Shown here: positions 36,258-60,539 of the stretch, piece by piece | Position numbering within the stretch: the first letter of the stretch is position 1 | Layout: each line of letters starts with the position of its first letter | From: Pseudoflavonifractor phocaeensis | GTDB taxonomy: Bacteria > Bacillota > Clostridia > Oscillospirales > Oscillospiraceae | Direction of reading: 5' to 3' | Assembly (NCBI RefSeq): GCF_021531375.1 | Contig: NZ_JADYTU010000001.1 | Span: forward strand, 62,001 to 126,000 | Length of the DNA stretch: 64,000 bases | Position numbers and translations under genes: made by a program | Notes under the pieces: generated by a model | Seen by the model: the letters and a program-made list of their open reading frames with translations, nothing else | The model's database searches: none | What the model was told of the DNA's origin: nothing

Positions 36258-36277
36258 GTAAATCGGACCGAAAAAAC

Positions 36278-36366
36278 TATCTCCCTACGTTGGCATTACC
36301 CAAATCAGGTCACAGGTCGAAGCGCCCAGCTTCCTCTCAGCCCGTTTGCGAGCTCCCTTGTTTTGC
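36278..36366 (-). promoter_or_regulatory. TPP riboswitch (THI element)
   Basis: On the minus strand GGGAGCTCGC leads into ACGGGCTGAGAGGAAG, then GACCTGTGACCTGATTTGGG, and TAATGCCAACGTAGGGAG. These are the conserved CUGAGA and ACCUG...GAU...GGGUAAUGCCAGCGUAGGGA blocks of the thiamine-pyrophosphate aptamer. With the terminator downstream it should shut off the thi operon when TPP is abundant. Confidence 0.95.
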
Positions 36367-36398
36367 CGTCACATCCCGGATCTGACGGTTTGCACCAT

Positions 36399-54532: not shown

Positions 54533-57220
54533 TCAGCGCAGGACCGCGCCGCACTCCTTTTTCAGAGCCTCCAGGATGCTCTTCACATCGGCGTCCGCCT
54601 CCTCACTGGTGAGAGAGCGGTCGTCGGAGCGGAGGACCAGATTGAAGGCCACGGACTTCTTGCCGTCCTCCACGCCCTTGCCGCGGTAGATGTCGAAGAG
54701 CTTGACCTCCTTCAGCAGGCCCTTTGCCCCCTTGCGGATGGCGTTCTCCAGGGCACCCACGGTGACGTCCTCGCCGCAGACCACGGCGATGTCCCGGGTG
54801 ACCGAGGGGAACTTGGGCAGGGGCTTATAGATGGGAGCAGCACCCATGGCGGCGAACAGGGCGTCGAAGCTGAGTTCGGCGCAGTACAGCTCCACGTCCA
54901 CACCGTAATTCTGGGCCACCAGGGGGTGGATCTGGCCAAATACGCCCACGCTCTTGCCGTCCACCAGCACCTGGGCGCAGCGGCCGGGGTGGTAGGAGGG
55001 GTTGTCCTTCACGGCCTCGAAGGTCACGCCCTCGGCCCGGATGGAGCGGAGGATGGCTTCCACAGCCCCCTTCAGGGCGAAGAAGTTCATGCCGGCGCCG
55101 TAAGCGCCCAGGGACAGGACCTTGGGCTCGTCGGCCAGACCGTCCTCCCGCTCGAAGTAGGTCCGGCCCAGCTCATACAGGCGGGCGGACTTGTTGCGGA
55201 AGTTGTAGTTCCGGGTCAGGATCTCCAGCATAGAGGGCAGGACGGTGGTGCGCATGATAGAGGTGTCCTCGCCCAGGGGATTCATGATCTTCATGGACTT
55301 CCGGCGGGGATCGTCAGCCGCCCAGCGGATCTTGTCATAGTAGGTGGGGGAGATGAAGGAGTAGGTGATGATCTCGTTGTAGCCCATGGAGCGGCAGATG
55401 GAACCCAGAGACCGCTCCAGCTTCTGGACATCGGAGTAGCCGCCCTGGGTGGTCTCGCCCCGCTGGAGGGTACAGGGAATGTTGTTGTAGCCGTGGAACC
55501 GGGCCACTTCCTCCGCCAGGTCGGCCATGCCGATCACATCGCCGCGCCAGGAGGGAACGGTGACGTCGCCGCCGCTGACGCCGAAGCCAAGCTTCTCCAG
55601 AATGCGGACCATCTCGGGAGCCTCCACGTCGGTGCCCAGCAGGGCGTTGATCTTCTCGGGCTCCAGTTTCAGCACCCGGGGCTGGGGCACATAGTTGAGG
55701 ATGTCGATGACCCCGCCCAGCACCTCGCCGGCCCCCAGCAGCTCCACCAGCTCACAGGCACGGTTGACGGCGGGCAGGGTGTTCAGAATGTCCAGACCCT
55801 TCTCGAACTTGGCGGAGGCCTCAGTGCGCATGCCCAGAGCCAGGGCGGTCTTGCGGATGGTGGTGCCGTCAAAGTTGGCGGACTCAAAGACCACGTCCAC
55901 GGTGTCGCCCACGATCTCGCTGTTCAGACCGCCCATGATGCCCGCCAGACCCACGGCCCGGGTGTCGTCGGCGATGACCAGCATGTTGGAGGTCAGCTTG
56001 CGGACGTTGCCGTCCAGGGTGGTCAGCTCCTCGCCGTCCTCGGCCCGGCGGACCACGATCTTGCCGCCCTTCACATAGCGGTAGTCAAAGGCATGCATGG
56101 GCTGGCCGTACTCCAGCATGACGTAGTTGGTGATATCCACGATGTTGTTGATGGGGCGCACGCCCATGGAGCGCAGCCGCTCCCGCATCCACTTGGGGGA
56201 GGGGGCGATCTTCACGTTCCGGACCATCCGGGCGGTGTACCGGGGGCACAGGTCGGCGGCGGGAGTCTCCACGTCCAGCAGCTCCATCAGATCGCCCTGG
56301 CCGCCCCCCTTGACCACCGGCTCGTGGAGCCGCAGGTCGGCATTGAAGGTGGCGGCGGCCTCCCGGGCCAGACCGATGACGGACAGGCAGTCGGGGCGGT
56401 TGGGAGTGATCTCAAATTCCACCACATGGTCGTCAGCGCCAATGACAGGCTTGATGTCGTCGCCGGGCTTCACACCCTCCTCGTGGAGGATGAAGATGCC
56501 GTCGTTAATACAGTGTGGGAATTCCTTCTGGTCGGCGTGGAGGTCGGCCAGAGTGCAGATGGTCTTGCTCTTGGTGTTCAGAGCCACCATGTCGCCCTCG
56601 TGGATGTTCTGGCAGGGGGTGACGACCTCCGCGGTCTCCTTGCCGTCGTTCAGAGCGCATTTCCACAGGTTCACGCCCGCGTTCTCCACGGCGGTCACCT
56701 GGGCGGCCACCACGGGGCCGTAGATCTTGTGGCCGGGCTGGACGTCGGCGGGGATGGAGGGCTTGTCCTTGTCCAGGGGCTTGTAGTCGTTCAGCAGGGC
56801 GGCGGCGGTAATGACGGCGTAGGGGAAGTCCCGCTCATCCAGAGCCAGCTCCTTCAGGGAGCACAGCATGCCGTTGGACAGCACGCCGCGCAGCTTGCCC
56901 TTCTCGATTTTGTGTCCGCCGGGGAGGGTGGACTTGTGGAGGGCGGCGGGGACCAGGTCGCCGGGGTGGATGTTCCAGGCGCCGGTGACGATCTGGACGG
57001 GCTCCTCGCGGCCCGCATCGATCTGGCAGACCCACATGTGGTCGGAATCGGGGTGGCGCTCCATGGACAGGATCTTGCCCACCACTACGTTGGAGATCTC
57101 GCAGCCCAGGTCCTCGGTGATCTCAACCTTGGAGCCGGACAGGGTCATGGCTTCGGCAAAGTCTTTATCATTGGCCTCAACGGTAACAAACTCATTGAGC
57201 CATTTACGGGATAGATTCAT
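54533..57220 (-). CDS. pheT: phenylalanyl-tRNA synthetase beta chain, unusually long
   Basis: With PheS it forms the (alpha-beta)2 enzyme that charges tRNA-Phe. The N-terminal tRNA-binding OB domain lies at about residues 45-135 (VGKILSMERHPDSDHMWVCQ; GVLSNGMLCSLKEL). B3/B4 editing and B5 domains follow (VEFEITPNRPDCLSVIGLARE; YTARMVRNVKIAPSPKWMRE), with the anticodon-binding FDX domain at the end (FPSVTRDIAVVCGEDV). At 895 residues it is about 95 longer than the usual 790-800. The surplus sits at about 169-250, where VVAAQVTAVENAGVNLWKC and PCQNIHEGDMVAL echo the first OB domain. Confidence 0.95.
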   Translation of the reverse strand: MNLSRKWLNEFVTVEANDKDFAEAMTLSGSKVEITEDLGCEISNVVVGKILSMERHPDSDHMWVCQIDAGREEPVQIVTGAWNIHPGDLVPAALHKSTLPGGHKIEKGKLRGVLSNGMLCSLKELALDERDFPYAVITAAALLNDYKPLDKDKPSIPADVQPGHKIYGPVVAAQVTAVENAGVNLWKCALNDGKETAEVVTPCQNIHEGDMVALNTKSKTICTLADLHADQKEFPHCINDGIFILHEEGVKPGDDIKPVIGADDHVVEFEITPNRPDCLSVIGLAREAAATFNADLRLHEPVVKGGGQGDLMELLDVETPAADLCPRYTARMVRNVKIAPSPKWMRERLRSMGVRPINNIVDITNYVMLEYGQPMHAFDYRYVKGGKIVVRRAEDGEELTTLDGNVRKLTSNMLVIADDTRAVGLAGIMGGLNSEIVGDTVDVVFESANFDGTTIRKTALALGMRTEASAKFEKGLDILNTLPAVNRACELVELLGAGEVLGGVIDILNYVPQPRVLKLEPEKINALLGTDVEAPEMVRILEKLGFGVSGGDVTVPSWRGDVIGMADLAEEVARFHGYNNIPCTLQRGETTQGGYSDVQKLERSLGSICRSMGYNEIITYSFISPTYYDKIRWAADDPRRKSMKIMNPLGEDTSIMRTTVLPSMLEILTRNYNFRNKSARLYELGRTYFEREDGLADEPKVLSLGAYGAGMNFFALKGAVEAILRSIRAEGVTFEAVKDNPSYHPGRCAQVLVDGKSVGVFGQIHPLVAQNYGVDVELYCAELSFDALFAAMGAAPIYKPLPKFPSVTRDIAVVCGEDVTVGALENAIRKGAKGLLKEVKLFDIYRGKGVEDGKKSVAFNLVLRSDDRSLTSEEADADVKSILEALKKECGAVLR

Positions 57221-57316: not shown

Positions 57317-58342
57317 TCAAAACTGCTCCAGGAACCGGGTGTCGTTCTCAAAGATCAGCCGCAGGTCGGTGATCTTGAACTGGCGCATGGCCAGACGCTC
57401 CAGACCCATACCGAAGGCCCAACCGGAGTAGACCTCGGGGTCGATGCCGGACATCTCCAGCACCTTGGGATGGATCATGCCGGCGCCCAGCACCTCGATC
57501 CAGCCCTCGCCCTTACAGGTGGGGCAGCCCTTGCCGCCGCACTTGTGGCACTGGACGTCCATCTCACAGGAGGGCTCCGTAAAGGGGAAGTGGTGGGGGC
57601 GGAACCGGGTGACGGTGCCCTTGCCGAAAAGCTGCTCCACCACGGCGTTCAGGGTGCCCTTCAGGTCGGACATGGTGACATTTTTGTCGATGACCATGCC
57701 CTCCACCTGGTGGAACATGGGGGAATGGGTGGCGTCCACCTCGTCCTTCCGGTATACCCGGCCGGGGGCAATGATGCGGATGGGCAGCTCCATGGTCTCC
57801 ATGGCGTGGACCTGCATGGGGCTGGTCTGGGAGCGGAGCATCACCCGGCTGTCGGCGTCAAAGTAGAAGGTATCGGACCAGTCGCGGGAGGGGTGGCCCT
57901 CCTCGGCGTTGAGCCGGTCGAAGTTATAGTAGGCCAGCTCCACCTCGGGGCCGTCCAGAACGGTAAAGCCCATGCCCACAAAGATGTCCTTGATCTCATC
58001 CAGGGCGCTGTACATGGGGTGCTTGTGGCCGATGGCCACGCTGTCGCCGGGGATGGTCACGTCCACCGCCTCCAGCTTCAGCTTGGCCTCCAGGGCGGCG
58101 GCCTCCAGCTTTTTGCCGGCGGCCTCCAGGGCCTCCTCCAGAGCGGCGCGGACCTCGTTGGCCAGCTGGCCCATGGCGGGGCGCTCCTCGGCGGACAGCT
58201 TGCCCATTTGCTTCAGAACGGCTGTGAGTTCGCCCTTCTTGCCCAGGTACTGGACCCGCAGGGCGTCCAGAGCGGCGGAGTCCTTGGCGCCGTCAAAGGC
58301 GGCCAGAGCCTGGGCGCGGATGTTTGCTAACTGTTCTTTCAT
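57317..58342 (-). CDS. pheS: phenylalanyl-tRNA synthetase alpha chain
   Basis: The 341-residue class-II catalytic subunit has an N-terminal coiled-coil (about 1-85), then motif 1 region MGFTVLDGPEVELAYYNFD, and motif 2 with RIIAPGRVYRKDEVDATHSPMFHQVEG (two adjoining blocks). Motif 3 is YSGWAFGMGLERLAMRQF. An AAAGGAGAAT site precedes the ATG. It begins 35 bases after the deacetylase stop, with no separate leader, so it should depend on the T-box upstream. Confidence 0.97.
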   Translation of the reverse strand: MKEQLANIRAQALAAFDGAKDSAALDALRVQYLGKKGELTAVLKQMGKLSAEERPAMGQLANEVRAALEEALEAAGKKLEAAALEAKLKLEAVDVTIPGDSVAIGHKHPMYSALDEIKDIFVGMGFTVLDGPEVELAYYNFDRLNAEEGHPSRDWSDTFYFDADSRVMLRSQTSPMQVHAMETMELPIRIIAPGRVYRKDEVDATHSPMFHQVEGMVIDKNVTMSDLKGTLNAVVEQLFGKGTVTRFRPHHFPFTEPSCEMDVQCHKCGGKGCPTCKGEGWIEVLGAGMIHPKVLEMSGIDPEVYSGWAFGMGLERLAMRQFKITDLRLIFENDTRFLEQF

Positions 58343-58377: not shown

Positions 58378-59475
58378 TTATTTCAAAAATTCGCTGACCG
58401 GGTGCTCCACCGTGATGTTGTGGCGGGGCAGGTCATACAGGCCTCGGGAGAGGTCGGCGGGGCCGTGCCGGGTGGTGACGGTGATGGCGAAGTGCTCCCG
58501 GAGATAGTCGTTGGCCCAGCGCTCCTTCTGGCCGTGGGGGTAGGCGAAGAAGAGAACCTCGGTACCCAGATTGGCCTGGATCTGGTCAATGCTGGCCTGC
58601 AGATCAGGGAAGATCCGGGCCTCATAGTCCGACCGGCTTTCACCGGAGATGTGCTTGATGCCTCGGGGGTCCTCCTGGTGGGCGTCATAGGTGTGGGAGC
58701 CGAATTCCACCAGACCGGAGGCGGCCATCTCCCGGCACATGTCCCAGGTCAGAAAATCGGGGTGCTGCTCTTCAATCTGCCGGGTGATGAGGGAGATAAC
58801 GGCCTTGGCCTGAAACTCCTCCAGGATGGGGAAGGCCAGATGGTAGTTGCTGGCATAGCCGTCGTCGAAGGTGATGAGCACCGCCTTTTCCGGCAGGGGA
58901 GTCCCGGCAGCCAGCTGGCTGGGCAGCAGCCAGGTGTACCCGTTGTCCCGCAGCCACTGGAGGTCCTCCCAGAACCGGCCGGTGGTGATGGTCCAGGTGT
59001 TGCAGCTCTGGCCGTCCTCCACCATATGGTGGTACATCAGGATATAAAGGGTGTGATTATCAGAGAGCGCGGGCTCCGGTTGGAGTTCAGACGGCGGTTC
59101 GGGAGCCGGTTCAGGCCCGGCTTCCGGCAGCGGTTCAGGCTCGGTGCCGGACTCCGGCTCCGGTTCTGTTTCCGTCTCCGGCTGGGCCTCGGGCGCGGGC
59201 TCCGGCACATCTATGGGCTCCGGGGCCGGCTGAGGCTCAATTTGCGGCGGGGATGGGGGCTGAGGCTGCTCCGGCAGAGCGGAAGGGAGCTGTTCGGGGG
59301 TAGCGGGGTCCGATGCCTGGGGCGGCTGTTCGGGAGAAGAAACTTGCTCCTGACTCTGACTGGCAGCCGGCGGGGCAGGCGGGGAGACGGGACCGGGTGC
59401 GGACTGACAGGCGGCCAGTGCCGAAAGCCCGGCCAGCAGAAGGAAAACGGCGGCTCCGAATCGGAAAAGACGCAT
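58378..59475 (-). CDS. polysaccharide deacetylase lipoprotein with Pro/Glu-rich spacer
   Basis: Residues 1-23 form a lipoprotein signal (FLLLAGLSALAAC). A Pro/Glu/Ala-rich spacer of about 115 residues could span the wall. A NodB-type deacetylase domain starts near residue 145 (LYILMYHHMVEDG), with the metal/catalytic motifs LITFDDGYASNYH and FGSHTYDAH and FFAYPHGQ near the end. It probably removes acetyl groups from surface glycan or peptidoglycan; the exact substrate is unknown. It is the first gene behind a T-box leader shared with pheS-pheT. Confidence 0.88.
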   Translation of the reverse strand: MRLFRFGAAVFLLLAGLSALAACQSAPGPVSPPAPPAASQSQEQVSSPEQPPQASDPATPEQLPSALPEQPQPPSPPQIEPQPAPEPIDVPEPAPEAQPETETEPEPESGTEPEPLPEAGPEPAPEPPSELQPEPALSDNHTLYILMYHHMVEDGQSCNTWTITTGRFWEDLQWLRDNGYTWLLPSQLAAGTPLPEKAVLITFDDGYASNYHLAFPILEEFQAKAVISLITRQIEEQHPDFLTWDMCREMAASGLVEFGSHTYDAHQEDPRGIKHISGESRSDYEARIFPDLQASIDQIQANLGTEVLFFAYPHGQKERWANDYLREHFAITVTTRHGPADLSRGLYDLPRHNITVEHPVSEFLK

Positions 59476-59496
59476 GAGATACCTCCCTCAAAAGAG

Positions 59497-59700
59497 TTGA
59501 AAAAAGCCCTCCGTCCCTTGACTGTTGGGACGAAAGGCAAACCTTCCGCGGTACCACCCGCATTCGCGCCCCGAAGGGCACGCACTTAAGCTCCGATAAC
59601 GGCGGAAACCCCGTCCCGCTCTCGCGGGCCGCTCCCGGGCGAACCAAGCGGTTGTGTTCCAGGGCGGCTTTCAGCCGGTGACCGCCCCTCTCTGCGGAAC
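59497..59700 (-). promoter_or_regulatory. T-box riboswitch (phenylalanine-type) with terminator
   Basis: On the minus strand a stem-I region opens AGAGAGGGGCGGTC near 59690. A candidate specifier TTC (Phe) lies at 59643-59641 in GGTTCGCCCGGGAG. The hallmark T-box GGGTGGTACCGCGG is at 59559-59546. An 11-bp terminator follows, CCTTTCGTCCC pairing with GGGACGGAGGG before a T run (59540-59497). Uncharged tRNA-Phe should favour readthrough into the deacetylase, pheS and pheT. Confidence 0.92.
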
Positions 59701-59744
59701 AAATGCACGCTATTTTCCCGTTCCTCGCATTTAGACTAAAGGTA

Positions 59745-59773
59745 TTTATATCATAAAAAGCCGGGTTTTGCAA
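59745..59773 (-). promoter_or_regulatory. promoter of the T-box operon
   Basis: On the minus strand TTGCAA (59773-59768), 17 bases, then TATAAA (59750-59745), about 40 bases before stem I. Confidence 0.7.
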
Positions 59774-59904: not shown

Positions 59905-60351
59905 TCATGTGGGGCGGATCACCCCGCAGGCGATTTTGTTACCGGAGTTGCCGGAAGGCTGGGAGTGAAAATCGTCCGGACCGCTGTGGATCACCACAGA
60001 GCGTCCGATCACATCCCTCACGGAGAAACGGTCTGTCAGCACCGATAAATGCGCCCGTCCGCGGCATGACAGCAGCGGGGGCAGATCGCCCGCGTGGTTG
60101 GGGTGAGGCGCGCCGGTAGGATTATAGTGGCTGCCCGTGCCGGAAAAGTTGTCTCCGGTACAGCTGCCGCCCTCGTGGATATGAAGGGCACAGAAGCCCG
60201 GGCCGCCATCCTGCGGCAGTCCGGATACATTGGCCACGACCAAAACGCCCTGTGGCTGCTGATAAAATTGAACGCAGCCGTGCAGACAGGGGGCCTCATC
60301 GCCGCCTCTGATCTGTGCGGTCCCGTCAGGACGGGCAGAACATGTGCGCAT
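59905..60351 (-). CDS. sodC: Cu/Zn superoxide dismutase family protein without signal peptide
   Basis: The 148-residue protein has the Cu/Zn-SOD signature: GFCALHIHEGGSCTGDNFS with two metal histidines, GSHYNPTGAPHPNHAGDLPP supplying the zinc ligands, VVIHSGPDDFHSQPSG, and NSGNKIACGVI at the end. The conserved cysteines are present. ATG 60351 follows a GAGGTGAT site. Most bacterial SodC proteins are exported, but here neither signal peptide nor lipobox is seen (start MRTCSARPDG). It could act in the cytosol of an oxygen-sensitive host, or use another route. Confidence 0.88.
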   Translation of the reverse strand: MRTCSARPDGTAQIRGGDEAPCLHGCVQFYQQPQGVLVVANVSGLPQDGGPGFCALHIHEGGSCTGDNFSGTGSHYNPTGAPHPNHAGDLPPLLSCRGRAHLSVLTDRFSVRDVIGRSVVIHSGPDDFHSQPSGNSGNKIACGVIRPT

Positions 60352-60539
60352 ACGATCACCTCGCAGCCAGCTTATGCGGGAACACAGATTGCTGTGAAAA
60401 GATATCCTTGCGGACATGGCTGAGACAGTGCGGGGAAAAGGTCCACAGGAGGCGGCGGAGGGAGCTGCTTTTTGATCCGGACTTGTCCGGAACGCCGCGC
60501 GGTAATCTTGAAAACAGTTCTGGTGAAACGGGAAAATAA

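Follow-up and report, generated by a model that had tools for sequence, protein, structure and literature searches.

Uncharged tRNA stabilises the antiterminator of a T-box leader and so allows transcription to read through into the genes behind it. With the T-boxes of Firmicutes pheST operons (RF00230; for instance C. difficile CD0699, PMC11477304), the locus described here has in common a stem I carrying UUC, a UGGN bulge, an antiterminator/terminator pair and pheS-pheT downstream, and it differs from them in that the first gene of the operon is unrelated and varies between close relatives. Wels et al. 2008 (PMC2494555) counted 8% of T-boxes ahead of genes that have no role in amino-acid metabolism or whose function is unknown, and noted that some ligases do not come first in their own T-box operon. 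The same authors describe T-box evolution by co-evolution, by divergence, or by duplication and insertion of the T-box, with regulons growing by element duplication or specifier change. Such operons resemble the present one in having a gene other than an aminoacyl-tRNA synthetase (aaRS) right behind the T-box and the ligase of matching specificity further down. We found no relevant literature pairing T-boxes with polysaccharide deacetylases in the open literature, some older T-box surveys lying outside the search.

We analysed a stretch of 64,000 nucleotides (the window) from Pseudoflavonifractor phocaeensis. On its minus strand, a promoter, a T-box leader and a terminator are followed by a deacetylase ORF, pheS and pheT (Table 1). 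A first-pass annotation made from the sequence alone had placed a Phe-type T-box leader ahead of a deacetylase rather than of pheS, with pheS starting 35 bases further on and no second leader; the RF00230 match, covariation and the ORF and profile matches bear this out, the deacetylase stop lying 35 nt from the pheS start (58342) and no second T-box being found between the two genes at this locus. Sequence, covariation and comparative data give good support to a single unit of deacetylase and pheST headed by the Phe T-box. Our preferred reading, to which we assign a probability of roughly 0.78, is that the site behind this resident Phe T-box is an exchangeable gene slot, with a tenant that shares the pheST transcript and is induced by uncharged tRNA-Phe. 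The leader would be an ordinary transcription-terminating T-box of pheS-pheT with a permissive slot between terminator and pheS, filled in this lineage by a CE4 deacetylase gene, so that deacetylase, pheS and pheT would form one transcription unit. With charged tRNA-Phe, transcription would halt at the leader terminator; uncharged tRNA-Phe would pair with the UUC specifier as well as the UGGU bulge, stabilising the antiterminator, and RNA polymerase would then continue through the deacetylase into pheS and pheT. Across the clade, tenants would have been lost from the slot and replaced by unrelated genes, perhaps through recombination between the conserved flanks, leader and pheS.

Table 1. Features of the T-box–deacetylase–pheST locus, with positions in the window.
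Feature	Position	Strand	Basis
Promoter	59745..59773	(-)	TTGCAA, 17-nt spacer, extended -10 TGATATAAA; top-scoring site of the stretch
T-box leader (stem I, II, III, antiterminator)	59523..59734	(-)	RF00230 match and covariation
Specifier codon UUC (Phe)	59641..59643	(-)	Rfam alignment position; UUC invariant, n=31 leaders
UGGU T-box bulge	59553..59556	(-)	Sequence; complements tRNA-Phe ACCA end
Intrinsic terminator	59500..59538	(-)	12-bp stem, 9-nt loop, U6; leader fold and sequence
CE4/NodB-type polysaccharide deacetylase, predicted lipoprotein, 365 aa, slot tenant	58378..59475	(-)	PF01522 1.7e-19; invariant catalytic motifs; fold match PplD/PgaB
pheS	57317..58342	(-)	TIGR00468 1.7e-102
pheT	54533..57220	(-)	TIGR00472 1.1e-233

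The leader was matched over its full length by RF00230 in a permissive Rfam scan (81.8 bits, E-value 2.8e-18); the default scan misses it because this score falls under the curated gathering score of 93 bits. Of the 14 T-boxes listed for the same genome, 8 score below that value. We aligned 31 homologous leaders from relatives with and without cargo. The specifier lies one base upstream of the CCC in the lower helix of stem I and reads UUC in 31/31 leaders, so we rejected a misassigned specifier. Of the 33 pairs in stems I, II and III, 29 have changed on both sides (excluding from the count the outermost 2-bp helix of the drawn structure, which is misplaced and fails covariation) and 86.5% of pairs are standard; the covariation score is 0.552, whereas shuffling gives 0.174 and slid versions of the structure give 0.067-0.175. 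Comparing the leader's folding energy with that of shuffled sequences was uninformative (z -1.5). The antiterminator, located by the Rfam alignment, and the terminator with its U-tract, located by folding, form a mutually exclusive pair, and the tRNA-Phe of the same genome has the anticodon GAA and a discriminator A (A73) before CCA, which complements the UGGU bulge. The UUC specifier proposed by the first-pass annotation, for which it had suggested covariance-model folding, is upheld by the Rfam alignment, its invariance, the covariation and the GAA anticodon; of the complete leader with an 11-bp terminator that it described, the terminator is present and its stem measures 12 bp instead. By analogy with characterised T-boxes, read-through of this leader would respond to uncharged tRNA-Phe. 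Just upstream of the T-box promoter lies a gene for a Cu/Zn superoxide dismutase (Sod_Cu; 59905-60417, minus strand), the named relatives of this genome being gut anaerobes, and elsewhere in the window a TPP riboswitch was detected at 36265-36369 (minus strand) with 57.8 bits, above its gathering score.

To survey gene order at T-box-pheST loci in related genomes, as the first-pass annotation had proposed, we selected 80 named pheS loci by PheS similarity alone, a leader being visible in 77. The leader stands directly before pheS (≤250 nt) in 37 of these, a deacetylase of the same subfamily lies in between in 12, and other ORFs intervene in the remaining 28; not every small ORF among these may be a gene. 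By Pfam, the tenants other than the deacetylase include DUF2500, YbjQ, YitT-DUF2179, GNAT, CPBP/Rce1, PPOX-like, cytidine deaminase and PC4-like proteins. With the same layout in many species, cultured gut bacteria among them, a single-locus accident was rejected. Both the recurrence of the slot and the exchangeability of its contents go beyond what the first-pass annotation could see. That slot families are in general specific to T-boxes was rejected for DUF2500, which occurs mostly outside T-box operons; in four genomes (L344, L348, L353 and L365) it was seen outside T-box slots, followed by a rarA-like ORF. In an even draw across the GTDB family, cargo was present in 17/36 close loci and in at most 2/66 distant ones (Fisher p ~1e-7), close meaning a PheS ~76% or more identical to that of the window, a boundary chosen after inspection of the data. 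Slot occupation is concentrated in one Oscillospiraceae clade. Since close loci are often occupied and distant ones nearly always empty, a leader directly before pheS is probably the ancestral arrangement, with the slot opening in one clade. The alternative raised by the first-pass annotation, an insertion of the deacetylase into the synthetase operon, thereby gains support, about half of the close relatives and nearly all distant ones having the leader directly before pheS.

To assess turnover, we mapped slot contents on a pheS tree of 109 distinct loci, which has many weak branches and whose locus set is enriched for deacetylase carriers, part of it having been retrieved using that gene. The minimum number of changes was 20 for empty/filled, 13 for deacetylase yes/no and 38 for tenant identity, against means of 35, 23 and 51 with shuffled labels; the changes are fewer than with shuffled labels, yet many, and therefore point to inheritance plus much change. 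Several close pairs of loci share 86-97% identity in leader and pheS but have entirely different slot contents, the swapped segment being bounded by the U-tract of the terminator and the ribosome site of pheS. These boundaries match what recombination in the flanks would leave, so that such recombination is perhaps the route of exchange.

Other synthetase operons carry cargo too, and we rejected pheS as the sole affected operon. In the same genome (names assigned by eye), an EamA-like transporter lies between a Tyr-type T-box (L092, C64:78493-78736) and tyrS, and a small zinc-ribbon-like ORF between an ileS T-box (L083, C15:5899-6133) and ileS. Among relatives, the slot is filled in 15/24 tyrS and 4/16 ileS T-box loci. 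Two further T-boxes of this genome were observed before other genes (again named by eye), one directly before a PhzF-like epimerase ORF (L093, C22:161804-162000) and one before a lactate/malate-dehydrogenase-like ORF and then a substrate-binding lipoprotein (L090, C55:100953-101183).

The tenant in the window matches Polysacc_deac_1 (PF01522) with 70.4 bits against a cut-off of 23.1. Its N-terminus resembles a signal peptide ending in LAAC, a lipobox by eye, and is followed by a Pro/Glu-rich linker and a CE4/NodB domain. The metal and catalytic residues in the TFDD, SHTxxxxH and YPxG motifs are invariant in 26 slot homologues, and the dN/dS of the deacetylase core is ~0.17 relative to its nearest relative, so the deacetylase is a maintained gene under purifying selection. 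The best fold matches of an AlphaFold2 model (mean pLDDT 84) are S. pyogenes PplD and E. coli PgaB, and a PDB sequence search likewise indicates the PgaB group. PgaB itself (TIGR03938 equivalog) was rejected: the match covers just the N-terminal deacetylase region (profile positions 2-259 of 621), and its 134.9 bits stay well below the required 321.9. From these features, we propose that the enzyme is catalytically intact and membrane-anchored. It shares the NodB-type fold and the conserved catalytic motifs with PplD, which de-N-acetylates the linkage unit of a wall polysaccharide (PMC8807736), and with the PgaB-IcaB group; it differs in having a long Pro/Glu-rich linker and no PgaB C-terminal domain, and is ~26% identical to solved relatives.

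In a tree of the deacetylase, copies from the slot group in a single clade with a few that lie at other places, apart from 13 distant homologues. Close copies lie in the slot in 17/17 cases within the genus and in 12/18 cases in a draw of 300 genomes of the family, one of these 12 lying at the end of a contig, with the leader out of view. The deacetylase tree suggests three groupings that would point to horizontal transfer between lineages; the pheS data reject only one of them, the placement of locus L125 (p = 0.023). As the copies belong mainly to one clade, long inheritance counts as much as exchange for this tenant, and its history is best accounted for by a long-standing association that was lost in places, perhaps together with some transfers. 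In one genome, a slot-type deacetylase lies just upstream of the Phe T-box (L054:226-1460), and the slot there holds YbjQ, then pheS.

Could pheS-pheT be driven mainly from their own promoter inside the deacetylase, with the T-box transcript serving the deacetylase alone? The leader promoter (-10 TATAAA) is the strongest site in the stretch, and its motif CTTGCA...TGTGNTATAAA is conserved across the leaders of relatives. A strong pheS promoter inside the deacetylase, named by the first-pass annotation as contrary evidence, was scanned for: weak sites exist, but the best reach 8/12 and lack an extended -10, and nothing there is comparable to the leader promoter. Cargo genes in relatives are nearly all on the same strand as pheS and end close to it (median gap 33-38 nt), and in distant relatives the T-box sits directly on pheS. 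With no second leader found before pheS at this locus or in relatives, and no strong promoter for pheS found at this locus, both were rejected, and a pheS-pheT operon running mainly on a promoter of its own is very improbable; we infer instead that the deacetylase is co-transcribed with pheST. The first-pass annotation had also suggested that a surface-glycan enzyme is tied to tRNA-Phe charging, which holds as predicted co-regulation and not as a dedicated circuit. In such a circuit, glycan deacetylation would be needed when phenylalanine is scarce, and selection would keep the deacetylase under the Phe T-box. Its standing as the most frequent tenant, its concentration in the slot both within the genus and family-wide, and the purifying selection on it would fit this. 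Yet sister species hold unrelated genes in the same slot, some deacetylase copies are located elsewhere, and the slots of other aaRS operons hold unrelated cargo as well; because of this diversity of tenants and the similar tyrS and ileS operons, a dedicated Phe-glycan circuit is not indicated. We also know of no link between phenylalanine supply and glycan deacetylation, and we regard this explanation as unlikely.

A stronger contender, at somewhat less than an even chance, is that the tenants are pure passengers that drift into the operon without benefit, their T-box control being incidental. The functional variety and high turnover of the tenants, and the occurrence of DUF2500 mostly outside T-box operons, agree with this. 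However, the full conservation of the deacetylase motifs and the low dN/dS indicate that this gene is useful, although not thereby its T-box control; its long-lived tenancy argues against pure noise, and occupancy is concentrated in one clade and present at several aaRS T-boxes. An exchangeable slot whose tenants share the Phe T-box with pheST, and would be induced by phenylalanine starvation, remains our preferred reading. More broadly, and only tentatively, the site behind aaRS T-box terminators in this Oscillospiraceae clade may be a favoured cassette slot, refilled by recombination in its flanks, that makes accessory genes starvation-inducible without a new regulator.

The RNA element and the synthetase keep their places; what lies between them has been gained, lost or exchanged in many species and in the operons of at least three synthetases. 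Should the tenants profit from starvation control, new amino-acid-responsive genes could arise in this simple way; should they not, the pattern cautions against reading gene function from T-box specificity. In the operons of Wels et al. (PMC2494555), a non-aaRS gene may likewise stand behind the T-box, whereas here a single, unchanging pair of leader and synthetase accommodates many different genes. The four modes of T-box evolution described there move the T-box; here the gene moves, and if the cassette-slot reading is true, T-box regulons would also grow by genes coming to the T-box and not the reverse.
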